Source: Aeromicrobium panaciterrae (GTDB taxonomy: Bacteria; Actinomycetota; Actinomycetes; Propionibacteriales; Nocardioidaceae). Taken from it: a stretch of DNA of 64,000 nt. The position numbers were made by a program, and so were the translations under genes. Under the pieces are notes generated by a model, which was given only the letters and a program-made list of their open reading frames with translations, did not search any database and was not told where the DNA came from. Shown here in pieces: positions 20,353 through 47,797 of the stretch. Position 1 is the stretch's first letter. Each line of letters begins with the position of its first letter. The stretch covers positions 124,001 through 188,000 of the forward strand of contig NZ_JAVDWH010000001.1 in the NCBI RefSeq assembly GCF_031457275.1. Direction: 5' to 3'.

Positions 20353-20356
20353 CAGA

Positions 20357-21969: not shown

Positions 21970-22122
21970 GTGCCCTCCTGTAGCCATGCAAAACGGGAGT
22001 GACAGTACTGACGACAGAGAAGAATTCTCATTCGCGCTCCCAAGCGATGTCAGAACAGTAACGACGCAATGTGATCCGCGTTACGCCTTTGGGGTTTACC
22101 TTCAGGCGAATATCAGCATGGG

Positions 22123-24709: not shown

Positions 24710-25894
24710 ATGTACGTCGCTCTGACACCTGACCAGCTTCGCCTTCGTGACGAGGTCCAAGGCTACTTTTCCGAACTTGTTACTCCGGAAATTCGCGCTG
24801 CGCTAGCCGCATCCACCGGAGAGTTCGGTGATGTCACCGTCTACAAGGACGTCATCCGCCAGCTCGGCACCGATGGCTGGCTCGGTATGGGCTGGCCCAA
24901 GGAGTACGGCGGCCAGGAACGCTCCATGGTCGACGAACTCATCTTCAGCAACGCTGCGATGGTCGCTGGCGTACCGATCCCCCACCTCACGCTCAACACC
25001 GTGGGCCCGACGATCATGCGCTACGGCAACGACGAGCAGAAGGACTTCTTCCTTCCCAAGATCCAGAAGGGCGAGCTGCACTTCTCGATCGGCTACTCCG
25101 AGCCCGGGTCCGGCACCGACCTCGCGTCGTTGCGTACCAAGGCGGAGCTCGACGAGTCCACCAACGAATGGGTCATCAACGGCCAGAAGATGTGGACCTC
25201 GCTGATCCAGTACGCCGACTGGATCTGGATGGCCTGCCGCACCGATCCCGACCTCGCTCGCCACAAGGGTCTTTCGATGATCCTCGTGCCAGCGCAGGCC
25301 AAGGGCGTCTCCTACACGCCCGTCCACACCATCGCCGGTGTCGGTACGAGTGCGACGTACTACGACAACGTGCGCGTCCCGGCCGACAACCTGATCGGTG
25401 GACGTGGCAACGGATGGTCGCTGATGACCAACCAGCTCAACCGTGAGCGCGTTGCGCTGACCTCGTCTGCACCGCTGGTGCACTCGATCGAGCTCGTCAC
25501 CAACTGGGCCCGTGAGACCAAGAATGCCAACGGCGTACGCGTGATCGACCAGGAATGGGTACAGATCCTCCTGGGTCGCGCGCAGGCTCGTACCGATGCG
25601 CTGACACTCATGGGCTGGAAGCTCGCCGCCGAGATCGACACGCTCTCACCCGCAGATGCCTCCGCCATCAAGGTCTACGGCTCCGAGCTCGCGGTCGAGG
25701 TCTACCGCGCTCTCAAGGAGATCGTCGGCCCCGGTTCCGGCATCGCTGCCGGCTCGGCTGGTGCGGCACTGGCGGGCCGTCTCGAGCGCTACTTCCGCTC
25801 GTCGCTCGTCATGACGTTCGGTGGCGGCACCAACGAGATCCAGCGAGACATCATCGGCTACGTCGGGCTCGGTATGCCGGCCGCGAAGCGTTAA
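24710..25894 (+). CDS. fadE26: Acyl-CoA dehydrogenase FadE26 (ChsE4), alpha subunit for sterol side chain
   Basis: The 394-residue protein has the ACAD N-terminal helical domain, 'YSEPGSGTDL' (near 128-137) in the FAD-binding middle domain, and a C-terminal helical domain ending 'FGGGTNEIQRDII'. In mycobacteria FadE26 and FadE27 (ChsE4-ChsE5) form an alpha2beta2 enzyme that desaturates the C26-CoA sterol side chain. The next gene begins 11 bases later and is the partner. No ribosome-binding site is visible, in keeping with a leaderless message from the KstR-controlled promoter. Confidence 0.92.
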   Translation: MYVALTPDQLRLRDEVQGYFSELVTPEIRAALAASTGEFGDVTVYKDVIRQLGTDGWLGMGWPKEYGGQERSMVDELIFSNAAMVAGVPIPHLTLNTVGPTIMRYGNDEQKDFFLPKIQKGELHFSIGYSEPGSGTDLASLRTKAELDESTNEWVINGQKMWTSLIQYADWIWMACRTDPDLARHKGLSMILVPAQAKGVSYTPVHTIAGVGTSATYYDNVRVPADNLIGGRGNGWSLMTNQLNRERVALTSSAPLVHSIELVTNWARETKNANGVRVIDQEWVQILLGRAQARTDALTLMGWKLAAEIDTLSPADASAIKVYGSELAVEVYRALKEIVGPGSGIAAGSAGAALAGRLERYFRSSLVMTFGGGTNEIQRDIIGYVGLGMPAAKR

Positions 25895-25904
25895 GGGACA
25901 CGAC

Positions 25905-26996
25905 ATGGACTTCACACTTCCTCCCGAGGCCGAAGAGGCAGCAGCACTCGCCGCGACGATCCTCAAGGACCACACCACGACCGAACGCCTGGTCAAGGTC
26001 GAGGCCGGCGGCAACCGGTTCGATCCCGTGCTGTGGAAGGCACTCGGCGATGCCGGGCTGCTGAGCCTCACGACTCCTGAGTCGCACGACGGTGCCGGTC
26101 TCGGATTCCTCGAGCTCTGCCGCGTCCTAGTCGAGGTCGGCCGTACGGTCGCCCCCGCCCCACTCGCAGTCGATTCCGTGGCACGCCTGTTCCTGGCCGA
26201 ACATGGCACAGACGAGCAGCGACAGACTGCGTACGCCGCCAGCGTCCTCAGCGCAGCGGTTGCTGAGGAGCACGAGTACGTACCGTCCGTCCCCACCACG
26301 ACTGCTGCGCTCGATGGTTCGGAGTACGTGCTCGCCGGCACCAAGTACCTCGTCCACGCCGCCACCGTCGCCGACGCCTTCCTCGTCACGGCAACCACGC
26401 CGGACGGAACTGGAGTCTTCCTGGTCGACGCTGACGCGTCGGGCCTGCAGATCCGCGAGCAGAAGCTCAGCGATGGCGATGCCGTTGGCCTCGTCGAGCT
26501 TGCCGGCGTACGCGTTCCCGTTGATCGCTTGATCGGCAGCGGCGATGCCGCCCAGCGTCTGGTCGACCTATTGACCGTCGCCAGCTGTGCCGTACAGCTC
26601 GGCGTCACCGAAGGTGCACTCACGCTGACCGCCGAGTACGCGAAGGTACGCGAGCAGTTCCAGCGGCCGATTGGCACGTTCCAGGCTGTGTCGCAGCGCC
26701 TCGCCGATGGCTACATCGACACTCGCTTCCTGGCTCTCACCCTGTGGCAGGCTGCCTGGCGTCTGGCCGAGGGCTTGCCCGCGACCGAAGCAATCGCGAC
26801 TGCCAAGCTCTGGGCATCCGACGCGGGCCACCACCTCGCGCACACGACGGTGCACATCCACGGTGGCGTAGGTGTCGACTTGGACGGCGAGGCACATCGC
26901 TACTTCACCGCCGGTACGCGCTACGACTTCGAGTACGGCGGGGCGACCGAACAAGCCCTGCGCCTCGGCAAGCTTCTGGCTGCCGAACCGGCGTGA
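25905..26996 (+). CDS. fadE27: Acyl-CoA dehydrogenase FadE27 (ChsE5), beta subunit
   Basis: ATG 25905 lies 10 bases after the fadE26 stop with AGGGA before it, giving 363 residues. The ACAD fold is complete but the middle domain lacks the 'SEPGSGTD' motif and is degenerate. The C-terminal 'TTVHIHGGVGVDLDGEAHRYF' stretch (seen as HIHGGVG) supplies FAD contacts across the dimer. This asymmetry is what is known for ChsE5, which cannot bind FAD alone and needs ChsE4. Confidence 0.92.
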   Translation: MDFTLPPEAEEAAALAATILKDHTTTERLVKVEAGGNRFDPVLWKALGDAGLLSLTTPESHDGAGLGFLELCRVLVEVGRTVAPAPLAVDSVARLFLAEHGTDEQRQTAYAASVLSAAVAEEHEYVPSVPTTTAALDGSEYVLAGTKYLVHAATVADAFLVTATTPDGTGVFLVDADASGLQIREQKLSDGDAVGLVELAGVRVPVDRLIGSGDAAQRLVDLLTVASCAVQLGVTEGALTLTAEYAKVREQFQRPIGTFQAVSQRLADGYIDTRFLALTLWQAAWRLAEGLPATEAIATAKLWASDAGHHLAHTTVHIHGGVGVDLDGEAHRYFTAGTRYDFEYGGATEQALRLGKLLAAEPA

Positions 26997-28537
26997 CGAT
27001 CCGGGACCTGCTTCTCGCAAGAGCTGAGCAGGACACCCCGGCACTTCTGACTCACGATCGCTCGTGGACGTGGCGCGAGCTCGTCGCCGACGCGTCGTCG
27101 AGGTCAGCGGCCATCGCGGGCTTGCTGGACCCTGCTCTTCCGCCGCACGTCGGACTGCTGATGGACAACACCCCGGAGATGCTTCTCGGGCTGTCAGCGG
27201 CGGGTCTGGGCAGTCACGTCGCCGTCGGCGTCAACAGCACGCGTCGCGGTGACGCGCTCTCGGCTGACCTGCAGCGCGCAGACGTACAACTCCTGCTGAC
27301 TGACGAGACGCAGAAGCACCTACTCGATGGGCTCGACCTTGGTGACATCCGAGTGATCGACACCGGCAGCGCTGAGTGGGCCGACCTCCTCGTACCGGCC
27401 GCCGCACCTGAGGCTGCACCGACCAAAGACTCGCTGTTCATGCTGATCTTCACCTCGGGCACGAGTGGTCGACCCAAGGCCGTACGGATCACCCACGAGA
27501 AGATCACGGTCCCGGGGTTCTATCTCTCCGACAAGCTCGGGCTCGGACCCACCGACGTGCACTACGTCGCGATGCCGCTGTTCCACTCCAACGCCGTCAT
27601 GGCCGGTTGGGCGCCGGCTCTCTACAACGGCGCAACCGTCGCCCTGCGCGAGAAGTTCTCGGCGTCCGAGTTCCTGTCGGACATCCGCCATTTCGGAGCA
27701 ACGTACGCGTCGTATGTCGGCAAGCCGCTGACGTACGTACTTGCCACACCGGCCCAGGCCGACGATGCGGACAATCCGCTTCGCTTCGTCTTCGGCAACG
27801 AAGCCGGCGACCGCGATATCAAGGCGTTCGGGGAGCGCTTCGGCTGCTACGTGGTTGATGGGTTCGGCTCGACCGAGAACGCTGTCATTGTGAGCAAGAT
27901 CGAGGGGACTCCCCCAGGCGCCCTGGGTTGGCCAGCCGATGGTGTTGCCATCTACGACCCCGAGACCGTGACCGAGTGCCCGCGCGCGATCCTCGATGAG
28001 AACGGTCGCGTCACCAACCTCGACGAGTGCGTGGGCGAGCTGGTCAACACAACGGGTGCCGGACAGTTTGCGGGCTACTATAACGACCCTGAGGCCACCG
28101 CCGAGCGGATGCGCGGCGGTATGTACTGGTCCGGGGACCTCGCCTATCGAACGGACGATGGCTGGGTCTGGTTTGCCGGGCGCACAGCAGCCTGGCTCCG
28201 GGTCGACGGTGAGAACCTTGCCACCGCGCCGATCGAGCAGATCCTGATGCGCCATCCGGCAATCGATCAGGTCGCCGTGTACGCCGTTCCCGACGAGCGA
28301 GCCGGTGACCAAGTGGCTGCGGCTCTCGTGCTCCGTGGCGAGCTTGCTGCTGATGAGCTTGAGCAGTTCCTTGATGAGCAGCGCGACCTGTCACCCAAGG
28401 CACGGCCGCGCTACATAAGAGTGGTCGACAACCTTCCCCGTACGGCGACCCACAAGGTGCTGCATCGCGAGCTCACCGCCGCCGGCGTCGCCGACGTCAC
28501 GTGGACCCGCGAAGAACGCGGCACCGCGTACCGCTAA
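26993..28537 (+). CDS. fadD17: Acyl-CoA synthetase FadD17
   Basis: GTG 26993 overlaps the fadE27 stop (GTGA), giving 514 residues. The AMP-binding P-loop is 'IFTSGTSGRPKA' near residue 150. The 'YWSGDLAYRTDDGW' and 'RTATHK' regions mark the adenylate-forming family hinge and the C-terminal lysine. Order and strand fadE26-fadE27-fadD17 are those of Rv3504-Rv3506. FadD17 activates sterol side-chain acids, reported for C24-type acids. The 3' end overlaps the convergent hydrolase by 4 bases. Confidence 0.88.
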   Translation: MTIRDLLLARAEQDTPALLTHDRSWTWRELVADASSRSAAIAGLLDPALPPHVGLLMDNTPEMLLGLSAAGLGSHVAVGVNSTRRGDALSADLQRADVQLLLTDETQKHLLDGLDLGDIRVIDTGSAEWADLLVPAAAPEAAPTKDSLFMLIFTSGTSGRPKAVRITHEKITVPGFYLSDKLGLGPTDVHYVAMPLFHSNAVMAGWAPALYNGATVALREKFSASEFLSDIRHFGATYASYVGKPLTYVLATPAQADDADNPLRFVFGNEAGDRDIKAFGERFGCYVVDGFGSTENAVIVSKIEGTPPGALGWPADGVAIYDPETVTECPRAILDENGRVTNLDECVGELVNTTGAGQFAGYYNDPEATAERMRGGMYWSGDLAYRTDDGWVWFAGRTAAWLRVDGENLATAPIEQILMRHPAIDQVAVYAVPDERAGDQVAAALVLRGELAADELEQFLDEQRDLSPKARPRYIRVVDNLPRTATHKVLHRELTAAGVADVTWTREERGTAYR

Positions 28538-34262: not shown

Positions 34263-34276
34263 TAGAACACGTTCTA
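34263..34276. promoter_or_regulatory. KstR operator of the lipase/acyltransferase operon
   Basis: TAGAACACGTTCTA is a full consensus match, extended to 8-base arms ACTAGAAC and GTTCTAGT (34261-34278) around AC. Read on the minus strand it ends in TAGTTT, a -10-like hexamer at 34258-34263, leaving a leader of about 15-20 bases before GTG 34237. It is among the strongest sites in the window and places fatty-acid and ester genes under sterol control. Confidence 0.88.
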
Positions 34277-34336: not shown

Positions 34337-34957
34337 TCAGGTCGTCGCTTGCTTCCGGCAGAGGCGGCACTGCGTGAGCTCGTTGGCATCCGGACCCGCC
34401 GGACGCAGATCCTCACGACCCGAGATCAAGCTGCAGTCAGCGCGGTGCACGGTCGTGCCGCGGCCAGCCATCACCAGGACGGCGCCCGGATCCTTGGGAC
34501 GAACCACGGCACGTACCTGTCCGCGCTTCGCACCGGACCCATCCGATTCGAGCGAGGCACCCGCAGCCATGGCGGTGTTGCGCGCCACCGAATTGGCCAG
34601 CCGGAGCACCGAGTCAGAGAGCTGACGCTGTGATTCCTTCTGGTCGCCTGCGATGCGGGCCAGCCACGACCCGAAGTAGAGGAACCCGCCGACGAACGTC
34701 ATGCCGAGTCCGAAGACTGCCGAGACCAAGTAAGCGATCTGGTCGTACGCATAGGGAGTGTGCGCGGCGCCGTACCAGCCGAGGCCGATCACGATCAGAC
34801 CAGCGGGCAGGAGAATCGCACCGGCAATGAACAGGACCAGGTGCAGCATCTGCACAGGGTTGTCGCGCAGCGGTGCCGTGCCGTCTCGCGATCCTGCGCG
34901 AGGCATCACATGCGGCGCTCCCTTGGCGGGCTGGGCAGCAATCTGTTGCGTTGTCAT
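34337..34957 (-). CDS. Unknown two-helix membrane protein with C-terminal Cys/His motif
   Basis: The product has 206 residues. Membrane helices lie near 37-61 and 73-95, followed by a charged helical stretch (101-125) and a C-terminal module with His171, Cys175, Cys197 and Cys200 ('TTVHRADC...CRLC'), reminiscent of a small zinc or heme site. The family was not recognised. It is the last gene of the LIV-type transporter operon, 5 bases after the 513-residue protein, so both may be accessories of that transporter. Confidence 0.75.
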   Translation of the reverse strand: MTTQQIAAQPAKGAPHVMPRAGSRDGTAPLRDNPVQMLHLVLFIAGAILLPAGLIVIGLGWYGAAHTPYAYDQIAYLVSAVFGLGMTFVGGFLYFGSWLARIAGDQKESQRQLSDSVLRLANSVARNTAMAAGASLESDGSGAKRGQVRAVVRPKDPGAVLVMAGRGTTVHRADCSLISGREDLRPAGPDANELTQCRLCRKQATT

Positions 34958-34962
34958 GGCCT

Positions 34963-36504
34963 TCAGGCCTTTCTGAGATCCGGGATACCGGCCTGGAGGC
35001 CGAACGAACAGTCATTGGCTCCGCCGAACAGCAGGAGGCCTGCTTGGCGCAGGTACCAAGCCACGCCGCTGGCGAGCAGTGCACCGCCGATCAGCAGGAT
35101 CATCGGCAAGCTGCGCAGCGGGGGCATTCCCTTGGCCACTGGAGCGGCCGTGGTGTCGTCGCCGCCGAGGTCAGTCGTGGGCGGTACGTCATCGAGAGCG
35201 GGCGCAAGGCCCCCTCCGGCGCCAGCGGCAGGCCCTGCACCGCCTCCGCCGAGGTCCGCCAACGTGATGGTGGAGGCCGAGGCCTCCGAGTAGCCCAGTC
35301 GCAGGACGATCTTGGGTGCAATGGTGTTGATGGACAGCAACAGACCCTTGAGTATGTTGCCTTGCTGAAGATCGGGGAGACCGTTCACCAAGTCGTCCAG
35401 CGGCAGCTTCGGAAGGTTCTTGCGCAGCGGTGCGGTGTCGATCGTGACTCGAGCCGCTTCAGCAATGATCTTGGCCGTGGATCCGCTTTTGGTGATCTCG
35501 GGCTTGGGTACCTCGATGGCAACCCCCAGCGTCTTGAGCAGGTCCGCGGCAGAGGTCGGGATGCCAGGGATCGGAGTGACCTTGCCGACCGCGGTGAATC
35601 CGTCGGGGCCGTACGCGAACTTCTGACCGGCGACCGTCATGCCGCCGACATCGACCGTCTGCGACGTGATCGCGCCTCCGTCTAGCGTGCTGGTCACCTT
35701 GGTGACAACGTTGACGCCGGTGAGCTTGATAACGCCAGCGAGCAGCCGAAGCTCACCGATACGACTCGTCGCCGTGGCCACAGCAGTTGTGCCGTCATAG
35801 TCGGAGCTCGAGACGCTCGTCATGCCGTCGAAGTCGATCAGCAGACCCAATGTGCCCAGCGGGTTCGTGGACGGTGCAGGCGTTGCGCCGAAGAGCCCCG
35901 TCAGAGCGTCGAGCGGGTTGGCTGGGGGCGCCTTGCTGTCGCCGGCATCGCCGTCATTCACGTCGGTCGGGGTGTAGGCGACCTTGGCGACGGTCCTCTT
36001 GTCACCAGCCTTGACCCGACCGATCATCCCCGGGAAGAACTCTTGGTACTGCTCGGGCGTATCGCCCGGGAAGCCGGCATTGGCCTGAACTGGGTAGCCG
36101 CCGCCAGTGAGCGCCGCCGGCAAGCCAAGCTGCTCGCCGAAGGTCTTGAGGCCTTCACCGACGGCCGCCCCGGGCCAGAAGGCTGAGGCACGAGCCGACG
36201 TCGCTGGTCCGGAGCCACCGAGCACCCGTGTGTAGGAGAGGTCGAACTCGCCCTGCGGCTCCGTGGGGATCGGAATAACGGGCTCGAAGATCTCGAGCTT
36301 GATCGGAGTGGCCGTCGCCGCGGTGCTGAACCCGCCGTACGCCACCGCCTGGGCAGGCGCGGCTCCGGACGCAGTCCCGCCCGCGAGCAGACCAAACGCG
36401 AGCAGGCTCGCGGCGGTACGCTTCGCGCGTCGACTCATCGAACGTGCGCGTCCGACGACCGTCTTGTCGTAGAGCGTCTTGTCGTTTCGAGCGCCACGGG
36501 TCAT
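34963..36504 (-). CDS. Unknown exported protein with C-terminal membrane anchor, in the LIV-type operon
   Basis: ATG 36504 overlaps the livF stop (ATGA) and has GGGAGG 6 bases upstream, giving 513 residues. An unusually long basic head of about 25 residues leads to a signal peptide ending near 'APAQAVA'. A large Gly/Thr/Ala-rich extracellular part follows, with a low-complexity Gly/Pro/Asp stretch near 425-455. One helix at about 466-485 is the likely stop-transfer anchor. No known domain was recognised. Translational coupling to livF suggests it belongs to the transporter and may be an outer-face substrate receptor or wall spacer. Confidence 0.8.
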   Translation of the reverse strand: MTRGARNDKTLYDKTVVGRARSMSRRAKRTAASLLAFGLLAGGTASGAAPAQAVAYGGFSTAATATPIKLEIFEPVIPIPTEPQGEFDLSYTRVLGGSGPATSARASAFWPGAAVGEGLKTFGEQLGLPAALTGGGYPVQANAGFPGDTPEQYQEFFPGMIGRVKAGDKRTVAKVAYTPTDVNDGDAGDSKAPPANPLDALTGLFGATPAPSTNPLGTLGLLIDFDGMTSVSSSDYDGTTAVATATSRIGELRLLAGVIKLTGVNVVTKVTSTLDGGAITSQTVDVGGMTVAGQKFAYGPDGFTAVGKVTPIPGIPTSAADLLKTLGVAIEVPKPEITKSGSTAKIIAEAARVTIDTAPLRKNLPKLPLDDLVNGLPDLQQGNILKGLLLSINTIAPKIVLRLGYSEASASTITLADLGGGGAGPAAGAGGGLAPALDDVPPTTDLGGDDTTAAPVAKGMPPLRSLPMILLIGGALLASGVAWYLRQAGLLLFGGANDCSFGLQAGIPDLRKA

Positions 36505-37208
36505 GCGGCACCTCCCAGGATCACGTCGGCCATGATGTCGTTGATCTCGTCAGGTTCGCCGGTTGCCACGATGCGGCCGCCGGTCATCACTGCCGCGTAG
36601 TCGGAGATCTTCAACGCAGTGCGCGCGAACTGCTCGACGACCAGGATCGAAACGCCGGACTGGGCGATCTGACCGACGGTTTCGTAGAGCTCATCGACGA
36701 TCAGTGGGGCCAGGCCCATCGACAACTCGTCGAGCAGCAGCAAGGCCGGGTCCGAGCTCAGGGCACGCGCCATCGCGAGCATCTGCTGCTCGCCGCCCGA
36801 CAGGGTTCCGGCGAGCTGGAAACGACGTTCGTGCAGTCGTGGGAAGTAGGAATATGCGGTGTCGAACACCTTGTAGGCCTCCACGCCCGCGTACGACATC
36901 AGCAGCAAGTTCTCCTCAACCGTGAGGTTGGGGAAGACACTTCGTCCTTCGGGGACGGTGGTCAGACCCAGTCGCGCCAGGTCGTCGGCCTTGGCACCTC
37001 GAACGTGAACGCCCGCGAGGTGGATGTCGCCCGAGGTCTGCTCCATCTGGCCCGATACGACCTTGAGGAGCGTGGACTTGCCGGCGCCGTTGGGGCCGAG
37101 CAGCGCCATCACGGCACCACGCGGGACGGAAAGGCTGACTCCGCGCAGAACCTCAATGCGGCCGTACGCGGCATGCAGGTCGACGATTTCAAGAATCGGC
37201 ACGCTCAT
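36501..37208 (-). CDS. livF: LivF-type ABC transporter ATPase
   Basis: The product has 235 residues. Walker A is 'GPNGAGKST' near 37-45, the signature 'LSGGEQQM' and Walker B 'LLLLDELSMGLAP' are intact, and the family-specific 'PEGRSVFPNLTVEENL' is present. It is the second ATPase of a branched-chain-amino-acid-type (HAAT) importer. The stop overlaps the 513-residue envelope protein gene and the start overlaps livG. Substrate choice is set by the binding protein, not by this subunit. Confidence 0.92.
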   Translation of the reverse strand: MSVPILEIVDLHAAYGRIEVLRGVSLSVPRGAVMALLGPNGAGKSTLLKVVSGQMEQTSGDIHLAGVHVRGAKADDLARLGLTTVPEGRSVFPNLTVEENLLLMSYAGVEAYKVFDTAYSYFPRLHERRFQLAGTLSGGEQQMLAMARALSSDPALLLLDELSMGLAPLIVDELYETVGQIAQSGVSILVVEQFARTALKISDYAAVMTGGRIVATGEPDEINDIMADVILGGAA

Positions 37209-37975
37209 AGCGCCACCTCTTTCGTCACGGCTACGTCTTCGTCGCTGTAGCCGAGGTAGGCCTTCTGGACCGCCGGATCCTTGCGGATCTGCTCGGGCGT
37301 GCCCTGGGCGATGATCGATCCGAAGTCCAGAACGTGGATCTCGTGGCAGACGCGCATCACGAGGTCCATGTCGTGCTCAACCATCAGAACAGTGCGACCT
37401 TCAGCCGCAAGGTCGAGAAGCAGGCCACCAAAGGCCTCGGTCTCGGCTTCGTCCAGTCCGGAGGACGGCTCGTCGAGAAGCAAGAGACGAGGGTTGCGGG
37501 CGAGCGCTCGGGCAACTTCGAGGAGACGCGCGGTGCCGGTCGGAACGGAGTCAGCACGCTCCTCGGCGTAGTCCAGGATGCCGACCCGTTCGAGCAGAGC
37601 GTCGATCTCGGCGTCGGCCGAGCCGTCGACTGCTCGCATGAACCCGCGGAATCCGTCACGGATGTCGATTGCGACGCGAACATTGTCCTCGACGGTCAGC
37701 GAACCGAAGGCCTCAAGGCGCTGGAACGTACGGCCCATGCCATGCCGCGCGCGTCGGGGCACGGGCATCCTGGTGATGTCCTTGCCGTCCAGGATCACCC
37801 GACCTGCCGTCGGTGTCTGCAGCCCGGTGATGACATTGAAACAGGTGGTCTTGCCGGCGCCGTTCGGTCCGATCAGGCCCGTGACAGTGCCTCGCTCGAC
37901 CTCGAAGTTTGCGTGGTTGACGGCAGTCACACCGCCGAACCGGACGACTACGTCCTTAACGTGAAGCAACGACAT
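37205..37975 (-). CDS. livG: LivG-type ABC transporter ATPase
   Basis: ATG 37975 gives 256 residues that start directly at the ATPase fold (MSLLHVKDVVVRFGG); a longer upstream frame is the out-of-frame end of the permease gene. Walker A 'GPNGAGKTT', Walker B 'LLLLDEPSSGLDEAE' and the LivG-type 'RHGMGRTFQRLEAF' loop are present. The ABC signature is altered: 'PTGTARLLEVARAL' stands where 'LxxGxQRRLEIARAL' is usual. It overlaps the permease gene by 20 bases. Confidence 0.9.
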   Translation of the reverse strand: MSLLHVKDVVVRFGGVTAVNHANFEVERGTVTGLIGPNGAGKTTCFNVITGLQTPTAGRVILDGKDITRMPVPRRARHGMGRTFQRLEAFGSLTVEDNVRVAIDIRDGFRGFMRAVDGSADAEIDALLERVGILDYAEERADSVPTGTARLLEVARALARNPRLLLLDEPSSGLDEAETEAFGGLLLDLAAEGRTVLMVEHDMDLVMRVCHEIHVLDFGSIIAQGTPEQIRKDPAVQKAYLGYSDEDVAVTKEVAL

Positions 37976-39929
37976 CCGGATCCACCTCCTTCTGGCTCTC
38001 GAGGAGTTCGTCATCGAACTCGTCATCGTCGACATATCTCGACCTGGCGAGCGCCGGGAATCTCTTGACGAGCCACGGGTAGACGTCGTCCTGGAATTTG
38101 CCGGGAATCTGGAACAGCTTGTTGGCCAATCCATTCGGGTCGCGAGCAAGGATGACCGCGCCGAGGCCGAGGAGCAGGAACAACAGGCCCGCGATCGACG
38201 GGCTGTCCGACTGGGCCACCGGGAGGTACATCAGGAAGATTCCGCCGAGGGCCGCACCGGTCACCGACGTGACACCCCACACGACCGCCATCAGCAGCAA
38301 CAGCAGGCTGGCAAAGAACTGGAAGTCGAAGGCCACGATGGTGCCTCGTAGGCCGGCGAACAGAGCACCCGCGAAGCCAGCGATGCCGGCAGACGCGGCG
38401 AACAGACCCACCCGAAGCCAGCGCATGTCGACTCCGAGCGTTCCGGCGCCTGCCGGACTGTCACGCACAGCAACCAGGATCCGGCCCAGGCGTCCACGCC
38501 GTACGGCAAGGACGACCAACGCAATGAGTACGAAGAAGACGGTCATCATGACGGCGTATCGGCCGGTGCCGTCCAGGTTCAACCCAAGAATGGAAAGGCG
38601 TTCAGCCTTGAGCGGGTTGTTGAACTCGAACGCGATCGCGGACTGGAACAGCAACTTGTCCATGAGCTGGGCAAACGCCAGCGTCGCCAACGCGAGGTAG
38701 AGGCCGGTGAGCCGCAGGACGGGAATGGCCACCAAGGCACCGACGGCAGCAGCAACGAGTACGGCGATGAAGAGCCCCAACAAGTTGGGCTGATCGATCT
38801 TGGCGTACGCCACGGCGCCGACTCCGGCGAAGGTGAACTGGGCCAGCGAGACGTAGCCGCCGTAACCGGTCAACAGAACCAGGGAGAGCATGACGATCGC
38901 GTAGGTGGCCGCAGTGCCTACCAGCAGGAGGTTGGAGCCGGACAGGACGACGGAGAGCACCATGACACCGACGATGAGCGCCGCTCCCCAAGCGGCGGCT
39001 CGACCGAGCGTCGGCACCGGTGCGGAGACGATGCCCTTGACCTGACCAATGCGCAGTGGCGCCTGGGGCAGCAACACCAGGATCGCGAACAGGAACAGCG
39101 TTGGAATGACAGCCGCCAGACCAGGAACCTCTTTGTGGAACGGGATCTTGTCGAGATAGCCGACGACATAGGACTGCCCGATGCCAAGCGCCATGGCGCC
39201 GATGTAGGTCATGGGCAGGTTGGTGAGCTTGCCGAGCATCGCGGCGGCGTACGCCGAAATCACCAGCAGAGTCAGGTCGTAGTACTGAAGACCGATCACT
39301 GGGGCAAGCAAGATGCCGGCCAGAGCGGCGAGCGAACAGCCGATCGCCCACGCAAGCGCCGCCACGAGCTGCGGTCGGCCGCCATAGAGCTGAAGCAGCT
39401 CCGGATTGTCGACCGAAGCGCGCATGCCCGTACCGATGCGTGTCCGGGCCAGAAGGACGTAGAGGCCCATCGCCACGATGATGGAGATGATCACGGTGAT
39501 GACCTGGTGCCAGGTGACCGTGATGTCGCCGACCTCGATCATGCGCCCCTTGAAGAACTGCGGCAGTGTCCGCGACTCCGGCGGCCAAATCTGCGTGGCT
39601 ACACCAATCAGGGCGACTAACAAGCCGACGGTCACGACCAGCGAGACGCTGACTGGCGCAGAGCCAAGGCCACGAGCGAGCACTCGTTGCACGAAGACAC
39701 CAAACAGCGGAGCGGCCACGAAGAGCACGAGAACTAGCGAGAGCCAGACGGGTATGTCCTGCCTGATCGAGAAGTCCCAGTAGACAAAGGCGAAGACCAT
39801 GCCGACGGCGCCGTGGGCGATGTTGAAGACGCGCGTGGTGCTGTAGGTCAGCACCAGACCACTGGCCGCAATGGCGTACGCCGCACCGGTGAATATCCCG
39901 ATGATCGTGTACGAAATGAACTCAGTCAC
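37956..39929 (-). CDS. Fused LivH-LivM permease of a LIV-type ABC importer
   Basis: GTG 39929 lies 4 bases after the livK stop. The 657-residue protein joins two permeases. Residues 1-290 are LivH-like ('FNIAHGAVGMV', 'GTGMRASVDNPEL'), and residues 310-610 are LivM-like ('LTGYGGYVSLAQFTFAGVGA', 'RGRLGRILVAVRDSPAGAGTLG'). About 16-18 membrane helices are expected. A cytosolic acidic tail (DDDEFDDE) closes it. Fusion makes a fixed 1:1 pair, so the transporter needs only this protein, LivF, LivG and the binding protein. Confidence 0.9.
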   Translation of the reverse strand: MTEFISYTIIGIFTGAAYAIAASGLVLTYSTTRVFNIAHGAVGMVFAFVYWDFSIRQDIPVWLSLVLVLFVAAPLFGVFVQRVLARGLGSAPVSVSLVVTVGLLVALIGVATQIWPPESRTLPQFFKGRMIEVGDITVTWHQVITVIISIIVAMGLYVLLARTRIGTGMRASVDNPELLQLYGGRPQLVAALAWAIGCSLAALAGILLAPVIGLQYYDLTLLVISAYAAAMLGKLTNLPMTYIGAMALGIGQSYVVGYLDKIPFHKEVPGLAAVIPTLFLFAILVLLPQAPLRIGQVKGIVSAPVPTLGRAAAWGAALIVGVMVLSVVLSGSNLLLVGTAATYAIVMLSLVLLTGYGGYVSLAQFTFAGVGAVAYAKIDQPNLLGLFIAVLVAAAVGALVAIPVLRLTGLYLALATLAFAQLMDKLLFQSAIAFEFNNPLKAERLSILGLNLDGTGRYAVMMTVFFVLIALVVLAVRRGRLGRILVAVRDSPAGAGTLGVDMRWLRVGLFAASAGIAGFAGALFAGLRGTIVAFDFQFFASLLLLLMAVVWGVTSVTGAALGGIFLMYLPVAQSDSPSIAGLLFLLLGLGAVILARDPNGLANKLFQIPGKFQDDVYPWLVKRFPALARSRYVDDDEFDDELLESQKEVDPDVVASR

Positions 39930-39933
39930 GAGA

Positions 39934-41355
39934 TCACGCCTTGCCCGCGCCGTGGCACACGTACGCGGTGCCCTTCAACGGCACCCACTTGCCGCCACGC
40001 AGCTGGAGGAACCTGACACAGGAGGGCGAGTGCTTGCCGCCCACGTCCATCGGGCCATGTGCACCGTCGGCCTTCCAGTCACGGACGCCCCTCACGCTTG
40101 CGACGAGCGAGGACCGAGTGAGCTTCCCGCCCAGACTGAGCGACTGTGCGACGAACAGTTTGGTGGCCGACCAGGCGAACAGCCCGAAGAACGTCGGGGC
40201 CGCGCCCGGGGCAACCTGCTGGAGCCACCGCTTGTAGAGGTTGATCTCCGGCTGCGACTCTTCGAAGGGGGTGAAGTTGGTGAACGTGATCGAGCCTTCG
40301 ACCGCGGATCCACCACTCCTGACGAAACCGGCGTCGTACACAGTCGGGTCGAAGAACTTCACGTCAGGCTTGAAGTTGGCCGACTGCATGGCCTGTGCGA
40401 GGCGGACACCCTGTTGGTAGCCGCCGATGAACTGCACCCAGCGCACACCCTTGCTCTTCATCTGCTGGACGTAGGGGCCGTAGTTGAACTCGGCAACATC
40501 GATGCCTGAGGAATACACGAACTTCATTCCGCGTCGCGTCTCGATCTTCTGCTGGGTGACCGCGTTCTCGGCGGACGCTCCGGCGTTCAGGTAGAGGAAG
40601 GCGGCCTTCTGGCTGGCGGCCTTGTAGTGCTTGACGAAGAAGTCGGGGATCGCATTGCTGAACTCACGCGCACCAGTTGCCTGTGCGCCGAAGCAGGTGC
40701 TGCAAGCGTTGCGGGTTGCGGTGACCGCCGCAGTACGGATGTCGGGAAGTCCGCACCTCTGGGCCGTCGCGGCTCCACCCGAGTCGAACGCTGACATCGA
40801 GCCGACCGCTGCGAAGACTGATTCGCAGAGCTTGGTGTAGGCCTGCTGATCGGCACCCGCATCCGTACGGGAGTCCAGAGTGGTCAGCGCAAGCTTGCGA
40901 CCACAGATGCTGGTCGTCGCGTTGAAGTAGGCGATGTACGCCTTCGTGCCCTGCTGAGCCGCCGTGAACAGACCCGGCACCGGACCACTGATGTCGGACG
41001 AGTTGCCAAGCAGGATCTGCTTGTCGGTGATGCCCTTCTGGTTCTTGAACCCGTCACATGAGGCGGACTTCACGCCGGGGATCGATGCTCCGCCGCCCGA
41101 GTCTCCGGTGCCACTGTCGCCGGCATCCGGGCCGGCATCCGCCGGCGTATCGCCAGATCCGGTGACATCGCCGGGCGTTCCGCCGCCGCTGACGCCGTTC
41201 GGGTTGTTGGCCGATTGAACGTACTCAGGGTCGAGTGTCGAGCCACCGCAAGCAGCAGCAAGTACCAGCGCGAATGTGACTAGAGCACTGCCTGCTACGC
41301 GTCGGACGCGTTGGTGCTTGTTTGAGCCATCGGGGTTTGAGCGCAGTCGTCGCAA
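39934..41355 (-). CDS. LivK-type substrate-binding lipoprotein
   Basis: TTG 41355 is the only reasonable start, giving 473 residues. A basic head leads to a hydrophobic segment and lipobox LAAAC (Cys near 36). A linker of about 45 residues rich in Gly, Asp, Pro and Thr precedes the periplasmic-binding-protein type I fold ('ILLGNSSDISGPVPGL'). Several cysteine pairs ('RNACSTCFG') suggest disulfides. The ligand is unknown. The KstR-type operator upstream argues for a steroid or a steroid acid, such as a bile-acid-like compound, rather than leucine. Confidence 0.88.
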   Translation of the reverse strand: MRRLRSNPDGSNKHQRVRRVAGSALVTFALVLAAACGGSTLDPEYVQSANNPNGVSGGGTPGDVTGSGDTPADAGPDAGDSGTGDSGGGASIPGVKSASCDGFKNQKGITDKQILLGNSSDISGPVPGLFTAAQQGTKAYIAYFNATTSICGRKLALTTLDSRTDAGADQQAYTKLCESVFAAVGSMSAFDSGGAATAQRCGLPDIRTAAVTATRNACSTCFGAQATGAREFSNAIPDFFVKHYKAASQKAAFLYLNAGASAENAVTQQKIETRRGMKFVYSSGIDVAEFNYGPYVQQMKSKGVRWVQFIGGYQQGVRLAQAMQSANFKPDVKFFDPTVYDAGFVRSGGSAVEGSITFTNFTPFEESQPEINLYKRWLQQVAPGAAPTFFGLFAWSATKLFVAQSLSLGGKLTRSSLVASVRGVRDWKADGAHGPMDVGGKHSPSCVRFLQLRGGKWVPLKGTAYVCHGAGKA

Positions 41356-41407: not shown

Positions 41408-41466
41408 TGTGACCCAGAACACCATCACCAAGGTAAGGCAGTGATCGACTCAAAGCACGCAATTTC

Positions 41467-41480
41467 TAGAACAAGTTCTA
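41467..41480. promoter_or_regulatory. KstR operator of the LIV-type transporter operon
   Basis: TAGAACAAGTTCTA matches the consensus fully. The symmetry extends to 11-base perfect arms, ATTTCTAGAAC and GTTCTAGAAAT (41462-41485), around AA, the longest palindrome in the window. It lies 107 bases upstream of the livK start and 6 bases past the end of the nitronate-monooxygenase-like gene. It can serve only livK, since the other neighbour ends here. Confidence 0.85.
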
Positions 41481-41491
41481 GAAATCTTGAT

Positions 41492-42595
41492 CTACAGCGA
41501 CGAAAGACGCTTGACGGTCTCTTCGTACTCGCTGATCAGATCAGCCATGACCTCGGCGACCGGGCGAACCTCGTTCATCGATCCGACGATCTGACCGACA
41601 GGCATCGAGATGACGTCCGGGTTGCCCGCAGAGTTCATCCGGCTGTGCGCGTCAGCGACCAGCAGATTCTGCAGCGGCATCGGCAGCGGCGTCGGCGCAT
41701 CTTCGGCCTCCCACGCTTCGGTCCACTTGGTCTTGAGGAGACGAGCCGGCTTGCCGGTGTAGACGCGCGTACGAACGGTGTCGGCGCTGGATGCGCGGAG
41801 GAACGCCTCGGTCATACCTGCGTTGGTGTTGAGGTTCGCGTACTCCGAAGTCGTCAGCCAGACCGAACCGGTCCAGACGCCCTGGGCGCCAAGCGCGAGT
41901 GATGCGGCGACCTGGCGGCCTCGACCGATGCCACCTGCTCCGAGCACGGCCACGTCGGGACCGACTGCGTCGACGATCTCAGGGGTGAGCACCATGCTGG
42001 CGATCTCACCGGTGTGTCCGCCAGCTTCATAGCCCTGGGCGATGATGATGTCGACGCCGTTGGCGACGTGCGACATGGCGTGCTTGGCAGCACCGGCCAG
42101 AGCGGCAACCTGTACGCCTGCGGCGTGGGCCTGGTCGATGACGTCCTTCGGCGGCGATCCGAGCGCGTTGGCGATGAGCACCGGTCGGTGCTTGCCGTTG
42201 AGGGCGATGTCGACGTGTGAGCGAGCAACCGAGTGCAGCCAGCCAAGGACGCCTTCACGGCCTTCACCCTCGGGCAGCGGCGGTACGCCAAGCTGCTGCA
42301 GGGTGCGATCCACGAAGGAGATGTGCGCTTCGGGGATCATCGCCTTGAGGTCGACCGACTTGCCCTCGGTGGGGATCTTCATCGGCATGACGACGTCGAC
42401 GCCGTACGGCTTGCCGTCGGTGTTCTCATCCATCCAGTCCAGGACGCCGTCAAGCTCGTCGGCGTCGTTGAACCGCACGCAGCCCAGAACGCCGAGTCCT
42501 CCGGCGCGTGAGACAGCAGCGGCGACGTGCTCGGACGGGGTGAAGGCGAAGATCGGGTACTGAATCCCGAAACGTTCGCAAAGTTCGGTGTGCAT
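41492..42595 (-). CDS. Nitronate monooxygenase/2-nitropropane dioxygenase-like flavoprotein
   Basis: The product has 367 residues in a TIM-barrel NPD fold. 'AGGLGVLGCV' near the N-terminus, 'IIAQGYEAGGHTGE' and 'VLGAGGIGRGRQVAASLALGAQGV' are the FMN-binding segments. Members oxidise nitronates, but several in sterol clusters are reductases or have other roles (IpdC is one relative). This one is not IpdC-like at its N-terminus. It overlaps the fadD19 stop by 1 base and is likely co-transcribed, so a role in steroid acyl-CoA breakdown is possible. Confidence 0.83.
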   Translation of the reverse strand: MHTELCERFGIQYPIFAFTPSEHVAAAVSRAGGLGVLGCVRFNDADELDGVLDWMDENTDGKPYGVDVVMPMKIPTEGKSVDLKAMIPEAHISFVDRTLQQLGVPPLPEGEGREGVLGWLHSVARSHVDIALNGKHRPVLIANALGSPPKDVIDQAHAAGVQVAALAGAAKHAMSHVANGVDIIIAQGYEAGGHTGEIASMVLTPEIVDAVGPDVAVLGAGGIGRGRQVAASLALGAQGVWTGSVWLTTSEYANLNTNAGMTEAFLRASSADTVRTRVYTGKPARLLKTKWTEAWEAEDAPTPLPMPLQNLLVADAHSRMNSAGNPDVISMPVGQIVGSMNEVRPVAEVMADLISEYEETVKRLSSL

Positions 42596-44244
42596 CAGGC
42601 GTTAGCCCCTTCTGCGTTCTGGGCCTCGAGCAGGAGCTCCTTGGCACGGGGGTACTGCGCCTTGCCTGTGGCGTTGCGCGGGATTTCCGGAACGAGCGTC
42701 AAAACCCGCGGAAGCTTGTAGCCGGACAGGAACTCGCGCAGGTAGTCGCGCAGTTCCTCGAGCTCGAGGGTCTCACCCTCGCGCGGCTGGATCAGTGCGG
42801 CGACGGCCTGGCCGAACTTTTCGTCGGGGATGCCGACGACCAGTACGTCGTAGACGGCCGGGTGGCGCTTGATCGCCATCTCGACCTCTTCGGGGTAGAC
42901 CTTCTCGCCGCCGGTGTTGACGCAGTTGGAGCCACGGCCCAGCAGAGTGACCTTGCCGTCTTCCTCGATTCGGGCGAAGTCGCCGGGAACCGAGACGCGC
43001 AGCCCGTCGACGACCAGGAAGGTCTCCGCGGACTTCTTCTCGTCCTTGTAGTAACCAACCGGCACCGATCCACCGCGGCCGAGGCGGCCGATCTTGCCGA
43101 CGTTGGTGGCCAGGTCAAGCACGTTGTTGTCCTCGTCGAGGACGACGCTGCTCGGGCCGAGACCGACGACAGGGCCGTCGCTCGAGATGTGCGTCTTGTC
43201 CTGCATACCCATGCCCTGGAAACCGGTCTCGCTCGCGCCGACGGAGTCGGTGTAGACGGGGTTGGGGAGGGCTTCGATCCAGCGCTCCTTGACCTCCGGG
43301 GAGAAGATCGCTGCGCTGCTGGAGACGGCGAACAGGCTCGCACCGGAGTAGGGCTCACCCGTGGCGGCCTTGCGCTCGAACTCCTCGATCAGCGGTCGCG
43401 CCATGGCGTCACCGGTCATGAAGATCAGCATCACGCCGTTCTCGTCAATGATTTCCCAGGTGCGCTGAGCGTCGAACTTCGGCTCCAGGATCGTCAGGTG
43501 ACCGGCGAACAGGTGCATCAGCAGACCCGCCTGGGCACCACCGTGCATCAGCGGGCTGAGCGGGAAGGTGACCATGCGGCCTTCCTGCGCTGCCTGCTTT
43601 GACTGGTCGAACTCCTCGAGCTTCTCGCCGGTGTAGAAGTCGATGCCACCACCGAGCGTGCGCCAGAAGTCCTCGTGACGCCACATGACGCCCTTCGGGA
43701 AACCTGTGGTGCCACCGGTGTAGATGATGTGGAGGTCGTCGGCGCTGCGCTCTTCGAAGTCACGCTCGGCGGACTGATCGGCGATCGCGTCGGCGTACAA
43801 GACGCCGTCGAAGGCGGAGATGTCTGACTGATCGTCGGGCTCGATCACGTCGGGGATGACGACAACGGTCTGCAGCAGCGGGTGGTTCGGCTTGGTCTTG
43901 GCAACCAGCGGCGCATACGTGCGCTCGACGATCAGGGCCACCACGTCAGCGTTCTCGAACAGGTAGTTGAGTTCGCCCTCGACGTACCGGTAGTTGACGT
44001 TGATGTTGACCGCGCGGATCTTGACGATCGCGAGAACCGCGATGACGTGCTCGATGCTGTTCTTCGCGTAAACGGCGACGTGTTCACCGGCCTTCACGCC
44101 TCGGGACTGCAGGTAATGCGCCAGTTTGTTGGACTCGGTCTCGAGTTCTGCATAGGTGACGGTTCGCTCACCCACCTTGAGAGCCAGGTTCTGGGGAGCT
44201 GCGTCAACTGCGTGCTCGAAAAGGTCAGCAATGTTCAGTGCCAT
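42595..44244 (-). CDS. fadD19: Steroid acyl-CoA synthetase FadD19
   Basis: The product has 549 residues. 'IIYTGGTTGFPKGVMWRHEDF' (split: YTGGTTGFPKG, MWRHED) is the P-loop region characteristic of FadD19. 'YRYVEGELNYLF', 'VGYYKDEKKSAETF' and 'NTGGEKVYPEEVE' also match that family. FadD19 makes the CoA ester of 3-oxo-cholestenoate, the first step of side-chain beta-oxidation after CYP125. Divergent echA19 is as in Rv3515c/Rv3516. TAGTCT lies 7 bases before its ATG, so the message may be leaderless. Confidence 0.92.
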   Translation of the reverse strand: MALNIADLFEHAVDAAPQNLALKVGERTVTYAELETESNKLAHYLQSRGVKAGEHVAVYAKNSIEHVIAVLAIVKIRAVNINVNYRYVEGELNYLFENADVVALIVERTYAPLVAKTKPNHPLLQTVVVIPDVIEPDDQSDISAFDGVLYADAIADQSAERDFEERSADDLHIIYTGGTTGFPKGVMWRHEDFWRTLGGGIDFYTGEKLEEFDQSKQAAQEGRMVTFPLSPLMHGGAQAGLLMHLFAGHLTILEPKFDAQRTWEIIDENGVMLIFMTGDAMARPLIEEFERKAATGEPYSGASLFAVSSSAAIFSPEVKERWIEALPNPVYTDSVGASETGFQGMGMQDKTHISSDGPVVGLGPSSVVLDEDNNVLDLATNVGKIGRLGRGGSVPVGYYKDEKKSAETFLVVDGLRVSVPGDFARIEEDGKVTLLGRGSNCVNTGGEKVYPEEVEMAIKRHPAVYDVLVVGIPDEKFGQAVAALIQPREGETLELEELRDYLREFLSGYKLPRVLTLVPEIPRNATGKAQYPRAKELLLEAQNAEGANA

Positions 44245-45546: not shown

Positions 45547-47115
45547 CTAACGCTCCGCTAGGACCGCCTGAGCTGCGTTGTAGCCGGGGATGAACGTGAT
45601 GCCCGGCCCTCCGTAGCAACCCGCGCTGCCGAGGTAGAGGCCTGCGATGTTGTGGGGCTGATCGACGTAGCCAGCCGGACCTGGACGGTAGGGACCGAGC
45701 AGGTCGGGGTGAATCAAGCCGTGGCAGTAGTCGCCTCCTGGCGCTCCGAACATCGTGCCCATGTGCTTCGGCGTGAACGTTGTGTGCTTGAGGATCAGGC
45801 TCTCGAAGTTCGGCGCGAAGGTCGTGATCCGGTCGATTACGGCCTGGCCCATCTCGGCCTTGAGCCGCGCATACTCCGACGGATCCTCCTCGACCGGGAA
45901 CCACAGCGCGAACGCCGAAGCCGCGGCTTTGCCTGGAGGAGCCAGGTCCGGATCGGATGCAGACGGGATCTGGAACGCAAGTGCTGGCGTCGCCGGGACG
46001 ATGCCGCGCTTGCTGTCCTCGAACTGCCGCTGCAGCTCCTCGGGTGTGGCGAACAGGCCGATCGCGCTCTGCATCTTCGGATCGTTGAGGAACTCGTACG
46101 GCGCCACGAACTCCGGCACTCCATCGAGAGCAAAGTGCATCTGTACGTAGCTGCCGCGGTGATCGATTCCGGCCAGGCGAGTGCTGAGCCCGGCCTCCAC
46201 CGCACCATCGGTGACCAGCGAGTTGAGGGTCAGATCGGGAGCAACCGCGGAGACGACAGTGAACGTCTCGATGCGTTCACCTCCGTCGAGAACGACGCCC
46301 GCGACGTCACCGTCAACCACGACGATCTCGCTGACGGAGGAGTCGAGCCTGAGCTCTCCACCAACCTCGGCGTACTGATCGGCCAGGTGCTGGGTCAGCA
46401 CGCCGATGCCGCCCTTGAGCTTCTTGGTCAGGACGGTGTTCTCGTCCGGCACCGCCATGCCGAAGGCCAGACCTGCGGCACTACCGGGACTCGAGGGCCC
46501 TCGGTACGTCGAATTCACTGCGAGGAAGGCGAGCATTCCGCGGAGTGCTGCGTGCTTCTTCTTGTCGGGCAGATAGCGATCAAGAACGTCGGTCGCGCTG
46601 CCGAACAGCATCTCGGTGATGCTGGCTCGCTCGGCGTCGTTGGACGCGCAGGCGTACATCTCATCAAGACTCTTGGGGAGCGTGCCAGCCTCGAATCGGC
46701 CGAGAGCGCGAGTCGGCGCGGCACTCCAGCCCATCATCTCGGCCATGCCGATCATGACCTCGATGCCGTGTTTCTCCTCCATGTGAACCGCGGCGTCGCC
46801 GAGGTCGGTGTAGTAGATCAGCGGCTCGATGCCTTCTTCGATGATCGACACCGACATCACCTCGAGCTCGACTTGCGGGAGGGTGTCGAGCCCGAGCTCC
46901 TTGCTCACGATCATCGAAGTTGGCAGCTGGACCGATCCAGCGATCTCGAACTTGTAGCCGTCGAAGAGCTCGACGGTCGACGCCATGCCGCCGGCGTATC
47001 GCTTCGCCTCAAGGCAGACGGTACGCAGCCCAGCTCGCTGCAACAGCAGTGCTGCGGTCAGTCCATTGTGGCCGGCTCCGATGATGACGGCGTCGTATGT
47101 CGTGTCCTGTGCCAT
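45547..47115 (-). CDS. FAD-dependent oxidoreductase of the phytoene-desaturase/PYROXD2 type
   Basis: The product has 522 residues. 'AVIIGAGHNGLTAALLL' (9-25) is the FAD dinucleotide motif, followed by 'CLEAKRYAGGMAST'. The C-terminal 'GLYLGSAGCYGGPGITFIPGYNAA' (seen in pieces GLYLGSAG, GGPG) closes the FAD site, as in carotenoid desaturase-like NAD(P)/FAD proteins. The substrate is unknown. Its promoter region holds a GTCA-N4-TGAC palindrome similar to one beside the adjacent TetR gene, so it is probably the regulator's target. Confidence 0.85.
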   Translation of the reverse strand: MAQDTTYDAVIIGAGHNGLTAALLLQRAGLRTVCLEAKRYAGGMASTVELFDGYKFEIAGSVQLPTSMIVSKELGLDTLPQVELEVMSVSIIEEGIEPLIYYTDLGDAAVHMEEKHGIEVMIGMAEMMGWSAAPTRALGRFEAGTLPKSLDEMYACASNDAERASITEMLFGSATDVLDRYLPDKKKHAALRGMLAFLAVNSTYRGPSSPGSAAGLAFGMAVPDENTVLTKKLKGGIGVLTQHLADQYAEVGGELRLDSSVSEIVVVDGDVAGVVLDGGERIETFTVVSAVAPDLTLNSLVTDGAVEAGLSTRLAGIDHRGSYVQMHFALDGVPEFVAPYEFLNDPKMQSAIGLFATPEELQRQFEDSKRGIVPATPALAFQIPSASDPDLAPPGKAAASAFALWFPVEEDPSEYARLKAEMGQAVIDRITTFAPNFESLILKHTTFTPKHMGTMFGAPGGDYCHGLIHPDLLGPYRPGPAGYVDQPHNIAGLYLGSAGCYGGPGITFIPGYNAAQAVLAER

Positions 47116-47141: not shown

Positions 47142-47163
47142 GTTTCGTCAATAGTGACGAAAC
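47142..47163. promoter_or_regulatory. Inverted repeat before the FAD oxidoreductase, inside the TetR 3' end
   Basis: GTTTCGTCA and TGACGAAAC are perfect 9-base arms with a 4-base spacer (ATAG). The site starts 27 bases upstream of the oxidoreductase ATG and overlaps the last five codons and stop of the TetR gene. Its core GTCA-N4-TGAC recurs in the TetR upstream region at 47798-47809, which points to one regulator for both. Confidence 0.7.
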
Positions 47164-47759
47164 ATCCCGTCGTCGCCCAAGCCGCTCTCGAGCGCGGTCA
47201 GCGATGCGTGACTGGCCTCGGCCAGGTCCGCGAGCGTCCGACGATCGCGCAGCATCCAGACTTCCATCGCGCCGAACAATGCTGCCGCGATGCAACGCGC
47301 GGTCACGACGACATCGAGTGCCCGATCGTCGCCGCCAAAACGACGGCGCAAGATCTCGGTGATCGCAGTCGCCAAGTCAGCCTCGACCTGCCTCAGGTGG
47401 GCCACGATTCGGTCAGGGTCGAGCTCGGCTGCGCGGAACGCCGCCATCTGAGTGAGCGGCTGCACGTCGTACGGGAACGCGAAGATCGCCGCTCGTACGG
47501 ACTCGACGATCGGCTCGTCGGCAGGTCTCGCCGCCATGGCTCCCCGGAACCACTGGAGGCCAGAGTCGTAGTCGGCAAAGAGCAGGTCGTGCTTCGACGG
47601 GAAGTGCCGGTAGAACGTACGCAGGGTGACGCCCGCGTCTTCAGCGATCTGCTCGGCTGAGGTCGCCTCGACTCCTTGGGACTGGAACCGAGCGAGAGCC
47701 GCACGCCGCAGGGCGACGCGGGTGCGCTCGCTACGAGCCGTTTGCGGATTCCGGGCCAT
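47148..47759 (-). CDS. TetR-family transcriptional regulator (not KstR)
   Basis: ATG 47759 gives 203 residues. The N-terminal helix-turn-helix shows 'TSAEQIAEDAGVTLRTFYRHFPSKHDLLF' features (AEDAGVTLRTFYRHF), the TetR signature, and the ligand domain is typical in size. It differs from KstR throughout and is not flanked by sterol genes of its own unit. The divergent membrane protein and the downstream oxidoreductase carry the candidate operators. The ligand is unknown. Confidence 0.9.
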   Translation of the reverse strand: MARNPQTARSERTRVALRRAALARFQSQGVEATSAEQIAEDAGVTLRTFYRHFPSKHDLLFADYDSGLQWFRGAMAARPADEPIVESVRAAIFAFPYDVQPLTQMAAFRAAELDPDRIVAHLRQVEADLATAITEILRRRFGGDDRALDVVVTARCIAAALFGAMEVWMLRDRRTLADLAEASHASLTALESGLGDDGMFRHY

Positions 47760-47797
47760 GCGCAGAACGTATCGCAAGGCTCGGCGTACGTAGTTCC

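Follow-up and report, generated by a model that had tools for sequence, protein, structure and literature searches.

A KstR-linked LIV-type ABC importer with two new partner proteins, a candidate system for steroid-acid uptake in Aeromicrobium panaciterrae and other actinobacteria

Mce4 is an ATP-binding cassette (ABC) uptake system tied to cholesterol catabolism, and according to the portion of a 2016 comparative study cited here, no system for steroid uptake had been identified beyond the mycolic-acid bacteria or for steroid substrates of other kinds (PMC4810484). Passages of later papers indicate mce genes for Nocardioides (PMC5526307, PMC7593942), and CamABCD of Rhodococcus jostii RHA1 is credited, in an excerpt of a review, with taking up cholate metabolites that have an aromatised A-ring (PMC8399759). 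Here we describe a set of six genes from Aeromicrobium panaciterrae, located at positions 34337 to 41355, minus strand, of a 64,000-nt stretch of contig NZ_JAVDWH010000001.1 (assembly GCF_031457275.1, positions 124,001 to 188,000), hereafter called the window. On balance, we think that the set encodes an ABC importer of the LIV type that is controlled by KstR and takes up steroid-derived acids, together with two new partners.

The six-gene set and its KstR-type box

An earlier note on this DNA had proposed a LIV-type importer operon of six closely coupled genes, and its strand and coordinates match what we found. The genes encode SBP, a LIV-type substrate-binding lipoprotein of 473 aa (39934–41355); PERM, a fused LivH-LivM-type permease of 657 aa (37956–39929); a LivG-type ATPase (37205–37975, with the ATG at 37975 as its presumed start); a LivF-type ATPase (36501–37208); P513, an exported surface protein with a C-terminal membrane anchor (34963–36504); and P206, a membrane protein (34337–34957). 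Read from the sequence, every junction is an overlap or a gap of 4 to 5 nt: SBP and PERM are 4 nt apart, PERM and LivG overlap by 20 nt, LivG/LivF and LivF/P513 overlap by 4 nt each, and 5 nt separate P513 from P206.

According to Pfam, the core of a HAAT/LIV-type ABC importer is complete, with Peripla_BP_6 in SBP (E=3e-32), BPD_transp_2 matching two stretches of PERM, ABC_tran plus BCA_ABC_TP_C in the LivG-type ATPase and ABC_tran in the LivF-type ATPase. Because the UrtB model matches the first half of PERM and the UrtC model the second half (both below their cut-offs), PERM is a true permease fusion. The earlier note had counted this fusion among the distinguishing features; the fusion is real, but other fused LIV-type permeases with 29–35% identity occur in this and related genomes, which rules it out as a novelty. 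Reading of the sequence gives SBP the expected lipobox and Gly/Asp-rich linker. Eight of its cysteines are conserved, seven being present in 24 of 24 aligned proteins and one in 23 (a gap in the last).

The 513-residue anchored protein and the Cys/His membrane protein that had been assigned to the operon are also both there. In sequence, the N-terminus of P513 looks like a signal, and the protein has a C-terminal hydrophobic segment of one helix (residues 463–486) and a conserved tail ending in PDLRKA. It exceeds the cut-off of the choice-of-anchor P family (NF040603) with 30.3 bits against 27, over residues 208–298 only; it has no Pfam family, and a search of solved structures was negative up to E=1. 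In P206, two hydrophobic stretches are accompanied, in the alignment, by a C-terminal H-C...C-C module in which H171, C175, C197 and C200 are invariant in 25 of 25 proteins. Its two Pfam matches both lie below cut-off, and its 17 matches among solved structures (E 0.33–0.85) were taken as chance. The invariant His and Cys residues suggest a bound metal, and from its basic flanks P206 is likely to be a cytosolic hairpin. The best reading is that P513 and P206 represent two new partner families of a LIV-type importer, with roles that we can only propose below.

Upstream of the operon, about 110 bp before the SBP start, lies a KstR-type operator, a 24-bp inverted repeat at 41462–41485 with the core TAGAACAAGTTCTA at 41467–41480. 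Its arms extend 11 bp outside the central pair, the longest among the nine boxes measured in the window, the next having 8, so that the importer does stand under the longest KstR-like palindrome, as had been claimed. The KstR motif TnnAACnnGTTnnA, in the form given in the cited part of PMC1995591, has 6 exact occurrences in the window where 0.17 would be expected, and 6 occurrences were reached in 0 of 100 shuffles. A TnnAACnnGTTnnA box upstream of the operon, which serves as the criterion for the KstR regulon, is thus present. A separate KstR box (34263–34276) is located between P206 and the next operon, the first gene of which encodes an alpha/beta hydrolase.

KstR itself is encoded in the genome about 56 kb beyond the window (L201:1246–1842, E=1.2e-61 to KstR 5aqc), and its gene has its own box at L201:1168, starting 78 bp before the KstR start. 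It was located by a search with PF17925, which we take to be the C-terminal domain family of KstR. Neither motif scans nor a search of structures by means of a second TetR gene had yielded KstR, which lies outside the stretches scanned. The TetR gene within the window (47148–47777) was considered as KstR and rejected, since its 10 solved relatives at E<=1e-6 include none named KstR. Judging from these boxes, the operon is probably under KstR control, and KstR is predicted to bind at the importer box.

Conservation of the unit and its link to steroid genes

P513 was found in 2 of the 49 genomes of the genus, the present one included, and in 52 of 391 Propionibacteriales genomes; 51 importer genomes remain once G084 is set aside as a chance match (E=1.8e-4, 34% over residues 95–189, one internal stop). 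In a first sample of 40 loci, taken from 39 of the 50 other importer genomes plus the genome G036 of this genus, the same six-gene order and strand were seen in 40 of 40. A scan of named genomes with P206 gave 106 relatives. The best 80 of these 106 belong mostly to Nocardioides and other Nocardioidaceae, and also to Haloechinothrix halophila and to metagenome-assembled genomes (MAGs) labelled Actinophytocola, Jatrophihabitans, Micromonosporaceae and Pseudonocardiales. From the 121 pooled loci, 23 duplicates and 14 loci without a permease match were removed, leaving 84 for the analysis of gene order; two loci cut upstream and two with SBP on the other strand were further removed for the analysis of boxes, leaving 80. 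The search in other genomes that the earlier note had suggested thus recovered the set, with the order SBP-PERM-LivG-LivF-P513-P206 retained in 82 of the 84 distinct loci. In the remaining two (L087 and L089), SBP is divergent and immediately upstream.

Boxes were sought with a position weight matrix built from eight window boxes, the importer's own left out, at a score of at least 10 and from −240 to +11 of an SBP start estimated from the alignment rather than from annotation. Of the 80 loci, 67 had a KstR-like box close to the SBP start, compared with 22 of 757 random control windows of those loci, some of which possibly contain true KstR boxes of other genes. When the matrix was replaced by 200 permuted palindromic matrices, a mean of 1.7 loci matched, with a maximum of 48. 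In a second run of 150 permutations the median was 0 loci and seven permutations reached 10 loci; the best, with 43 loci, was drawn twice and is a column reorder with an unaltered consensus. As judged with a crude gene caller, no other gene family around the set was common to more than 12 of 39 loci. Because the flanking genes differ between loci, the unit and its box appear to travel together.

Several further observations concern the boxes and the set. The half-site variants TAGTAC or TGGTAC in place of TAGAAC are common in the importer box (L054, L056, L061, L063, L067 and others), looking as if one Nocardioides group had undergone a change of KstR affinity or specificity. At L172:12486–12499 (genome 200486), a perfect KstR-like box, TAGAACATGTTCTA, has a TetR gene on one side and an apparent cysD gene on the other; sulfate activation would be unexpected under KstR control, and the cysD assignment comes from reading, with no family search. 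Thirteen of 40 loci (L041, L048, L049, L053, L058, L059, L061, L062, L065, L066, L068, L069 and L070) have a second, diverged SBP gene close to the importer, at a distance of 3.7 kb in L070, which suggests two ligands. Directly downstream of P206, a relative (51–58%) of the SDR gene at 10330–11127 of the window is present in L114, L127, L143, L145, L146 and L148.

Steroid catabolism genes accompany the set in the Propionibacteriales genomes. HsaD exceeded its cut-off in 49 of the 51 importer genomes compared with 27 of the 340 others, and EchA19 was present in 50 of 51 compared with 28 of 340. By this comparison the steroid link of the set is strong. Comparison thus gives strong support to three parts of the earlier proposal of a steroid uptake system, namely its link to steroids, the operon and the pair of extra partners as fixed members, while the fused permease drops out as a distinguishing mark. 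A close Mce4A (>330 bits) is missing in 7 of the 51 importer genomes, as confirmed by a second search that scored all candidates; these seven retain more distant MCE proteins of about 40% identity. The other 44, including the present genome, carry both the importer and a close Mce4A.

In the window, the importer is surrounded by a steroid cluster. An Mce4-type locus (12284–21987, minus strand) encodes two MlaE permeases and six MlaD/Mce4_CUP1 proteins, with two family-less genes at 12284–13626. Two acyl-CoA dehydrogenases and a CoA ligase follow on the plus strand (24710–28537), and we take these, partly from their position, to be FadE26, FadE27 and FadD17-like; the dehydrogenases match general NCBIfam models, and the ligase matches the FadD1, FadD17 and CasI models, all below cut-off. 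The upstream operon (41492–44244, minus strand) consists of an NMO-type flavoprotein gene (41492–42595) and an acyl-CoA synthetase gene (42595–44244; model PRK07798, 696 bits, cut-off 543), the latter presumably FadD19-like. The labels FadD12 and KstD in the window are likewise our own assumption; the NCBIfam models that bear such names are below cut-off or more general. EchA19 and a steroid 3-ketoacyl-CoA thiolase, both over cut-off, and a ChsH2-type protein are also encoded, and KstR2 (E=3e-66 to 4w1u) and FadD3 lie about 20 kb beyond the window. The cluster further holds a CrtO-like FAD oxidoreductase gene (45547–47115; 117 bits, far under the cut-off of 1000), which adjoins the TetR gene mentioned above, itself MftR-like.

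Relatives of some cluster genes recur near the importer in other lineages. A FadD17-like relative lies no more than 2.3 kb from the set in an Aeromicrobium MAG (83%), Haloechinothrix (67%) and an Actinophytocola MAG (60%). In two Jatrophihabitans MAGs (L127 and L148), a FadE26 relative (59–63%) is divergently oriented upstream, and two boxes lie between it and the SDR gene that precedes SBP. By gene, the flanks contain FadD17-like relatives in four loci, FadE26 relatives in two and SDR relatives in six. A FadE26 relative was found in 8 of 9 outlying genomes searched, with at least 57% identity in 7.

Proposed function and rival explanations

We propose that KstR represses the importer and that a steroid acid or a derivative releases this repression. 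SBP would catch the ligand outside the membrane for delivery to the fused permease, LivG and LivF supplying the energy; transport is predicted to run inward. The cargo might be steroid-derived carboxylic acids of the C27 or C24 type, or partly degraded intermediates that have leaked out. A steroid acid or short-side-chain intermediate is a plausible substrate, because the set is linked to acyl-CoA dehydrogenase and CoA-ligase relatives in a few other lineages, because 24 of 24 SBPs have a different residue at the position of LivJ Ser79 and because the nearest solved relatives of SBP include a presumably fatty-acid-binding protein (see below for both). P513, held by its single C-terminal helix, presumably gathers or presents a poorly soluble ligand at the cell wall, and P206 is probably a hairpin in the membrane whose metal-binding module faces the cytosol and probably touches the P513 tail or the ATPases.

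The LIV-family core could also belong to an ordinary amino-acid importer, with the KstR-like box there by chance or for nitrogen supply. We aligned 24 SBPs with E. coli LivJ, in which we take Ser79, Thr102, Tyr202 and Glu226 to be the residues gripping the amino acid; the hhalign probability was 61%, so the residue pairs are tentative. Thr is present at the Thr102 position in 9 of 24 (Val in 15) and Tyr at the Tyr202 position in 18 of 24, in line with this explanation. However, the Ser79 position holds Ala or Gly in all 24, followed by an invariant Phe and Asp, and the Glu226 position is acidic in none, although an invariant Asp adjoins it and the alignment could be shifted there by a single residue. 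This outcome speaks against the amino-acid-binding subgroup, not against the HAAT/LIV family. Considering also the boxes in 67 of 80 loci despite differing neighbours and the co-occurrence with steroid genes, we regard amino-acid import as very improbable.

Uptake of fatty acids or similar lipid acids, for instance from sterol esters, with KstR controlling a wider lipid-degradation regulon, is better placed, yet still unlikely in our view. A profile search of solved structures with SBP returned the LIV-type proteins 3hut, 4n03 and 4n0q, and 4n03, the best relative by single sequence and second by profile, is presumably a fatty-acid-binding SBP of Thermomonospora curvata; its match, however, spans only about 90 residues. 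A FadD12-type ligase gene (below cut-off) and a wax ester/DGAT gene lie nearby, and an excerpt of Kendall 2007 presents KstR as a controller of lipid-metabolism genes (PMC1995591). Against this, nearly all importer genomes carry HsaD (49 of 51) and EchA19 (50 of 51), and the catabolic neighbours, where present, are relatives of the window's steroid-cluster genes. The importer might instead replace or partner Mce4 and take up intact sterols. It occurs in 7 of 7 HsaD-positive genomes without a close Mce4A compared with 42 of 69 with one (Fisher p=0.046, marginal and uncorrected for kinship). Nevertheless, both systems coexist in 44 of 51 importer genomes, and the ligands that LIV-type binding proteins enclose are small and soluble; we consider intact sterols a distinctly unlikely cargo.

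The import of steroid-derived acids under KstR has its own difficulties. At score 10, 13 of 80 loci lack a box, three of them scoring 8.3; among the misses, L032, L127 and L148 have boxes farther upstream. The two pseudonocardial loci with a divergent SBP, L087 and L089, have no box within 20 kb. Of 120 loci, only 10, including one duplicate, have relatives (at least 50% identity) of the window's steroid-cluster genes in the flanks analysed. The Fisher p near 1e-40 for co-occurrence with HsaD and EchA19 ignores shared ancestry, and the importer is missing from 27 HsaD-positive genomes (six from this genus); because these do without it, it is not needed for steroid catabolism. Among open-licence papers, we found neither a description of the set nor ligand, transport or expression data on the operon. 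The 2016 N. simplex genome paper, as cited in an excerpt, predicted 71 KstR operons and may list this one, and the cited part of PMC7593942 ascribes steroid uptake of N. simplex to cholesterol- and lithocholate-induced mce genes and a lithocholate-induced permease.

Tentatively, and at somewhat less than an even chance, we extend the proposal: actinobacteria would possess, besides Mce4, a second steroid transporter class. It would be KstR-controlled, would bind steroid acids through its SBP and need the dedicated P513 and P206; among the recognisable routes of steroid uptake it would be the principal one in some Nocardioides lacking a close Mce4A, and a separate KstR2-controlled LIV importer would serve late ring-degradation intermediates. 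The set adds a further concrete steroid-uptake candidate at about a hundred loci. With a defined operator, a purifiable SBP and natural strains without a close Mce4A, the uptake question becomes directly testable, with possible relevance to industrial steroid conversion by Nocardioides.

Comparison with known systems

Like LivJKHMGF, the present set has a LIV-fold SBP, a LivH/LivM-type permease, LivG and LivF in one operon. Unlike LivJKHMGF, it has fused permeases, a lipoprotein SBP with eight conserved cysteines and a replaced Ser79 position, two additional membrane or surface partners and a KstR-type box. Mce4 shares the same KstR-box-rich cluster with the importer, but it uses MlaE permeases and MCE proteins, has no LIV-type SBP and, by Pfam, has no subunit in common with it; MCE/MlaD and MlaE members were found only in the separate locus at 12284–21987, none within the six genes. 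Because the window also holds this Mce4-type locus, the importer is an additional porter here and not the only one. CamABCD, compared by description only, resembles it in the ABC uptake of steroid-derived metabolites; CamABCD is described for growth on cholate, whereas the present set carries KstR-type boxes.

A parallel in regulation is a different LIV-type importer in the KstR2/fadD3 cluster of Pimelobacter simplex ATCC 6946, near ipdAB (L169–L171, G345:C2:244854–250000 and 276340–277527). Its SBP gene is preceded by two boxes (244764 and 244812) that fit a pattern we take to be KstR2-like, and a lone second SBP, 76% identical to the first, is present. The order ipdA-ipdB-kstR2-fadD3-...-SBP agrees with published locus tags. 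In a cited part of PMC7807495, the most phytosterol-induced gene of N. simplex is KR76_25195 (59-fold), an 'ABC amino acid transporter' in cluster C. We rejected it as the present importer, which in ATCC 6946 lies on another contig than fadD3, among housekeeping-reading genes. There, two SBP genes precede the permease gene, at a distance of some 16 kb from an apparent enolase gene. From the gene order in ATCC 6946, KR76_25195 most likely belongs to the KstR2-linked LIV importer, the expression strain being VKM Ac-2033D. Both importers are LIV-type and stand behind the boxes of a steroid repressor, but the permeases match at 26.5% identity, the SBPs are not significantly alike by BLAST (best E=0.04), and the 60 kb searched around the KstR2-linked importer contains no relative of P513 or P206 at E<=1e-4. 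Therefore, from the present set and the P. simplex importer together, LIV-type importers may serve both the KstR and the KstR2 regulons.

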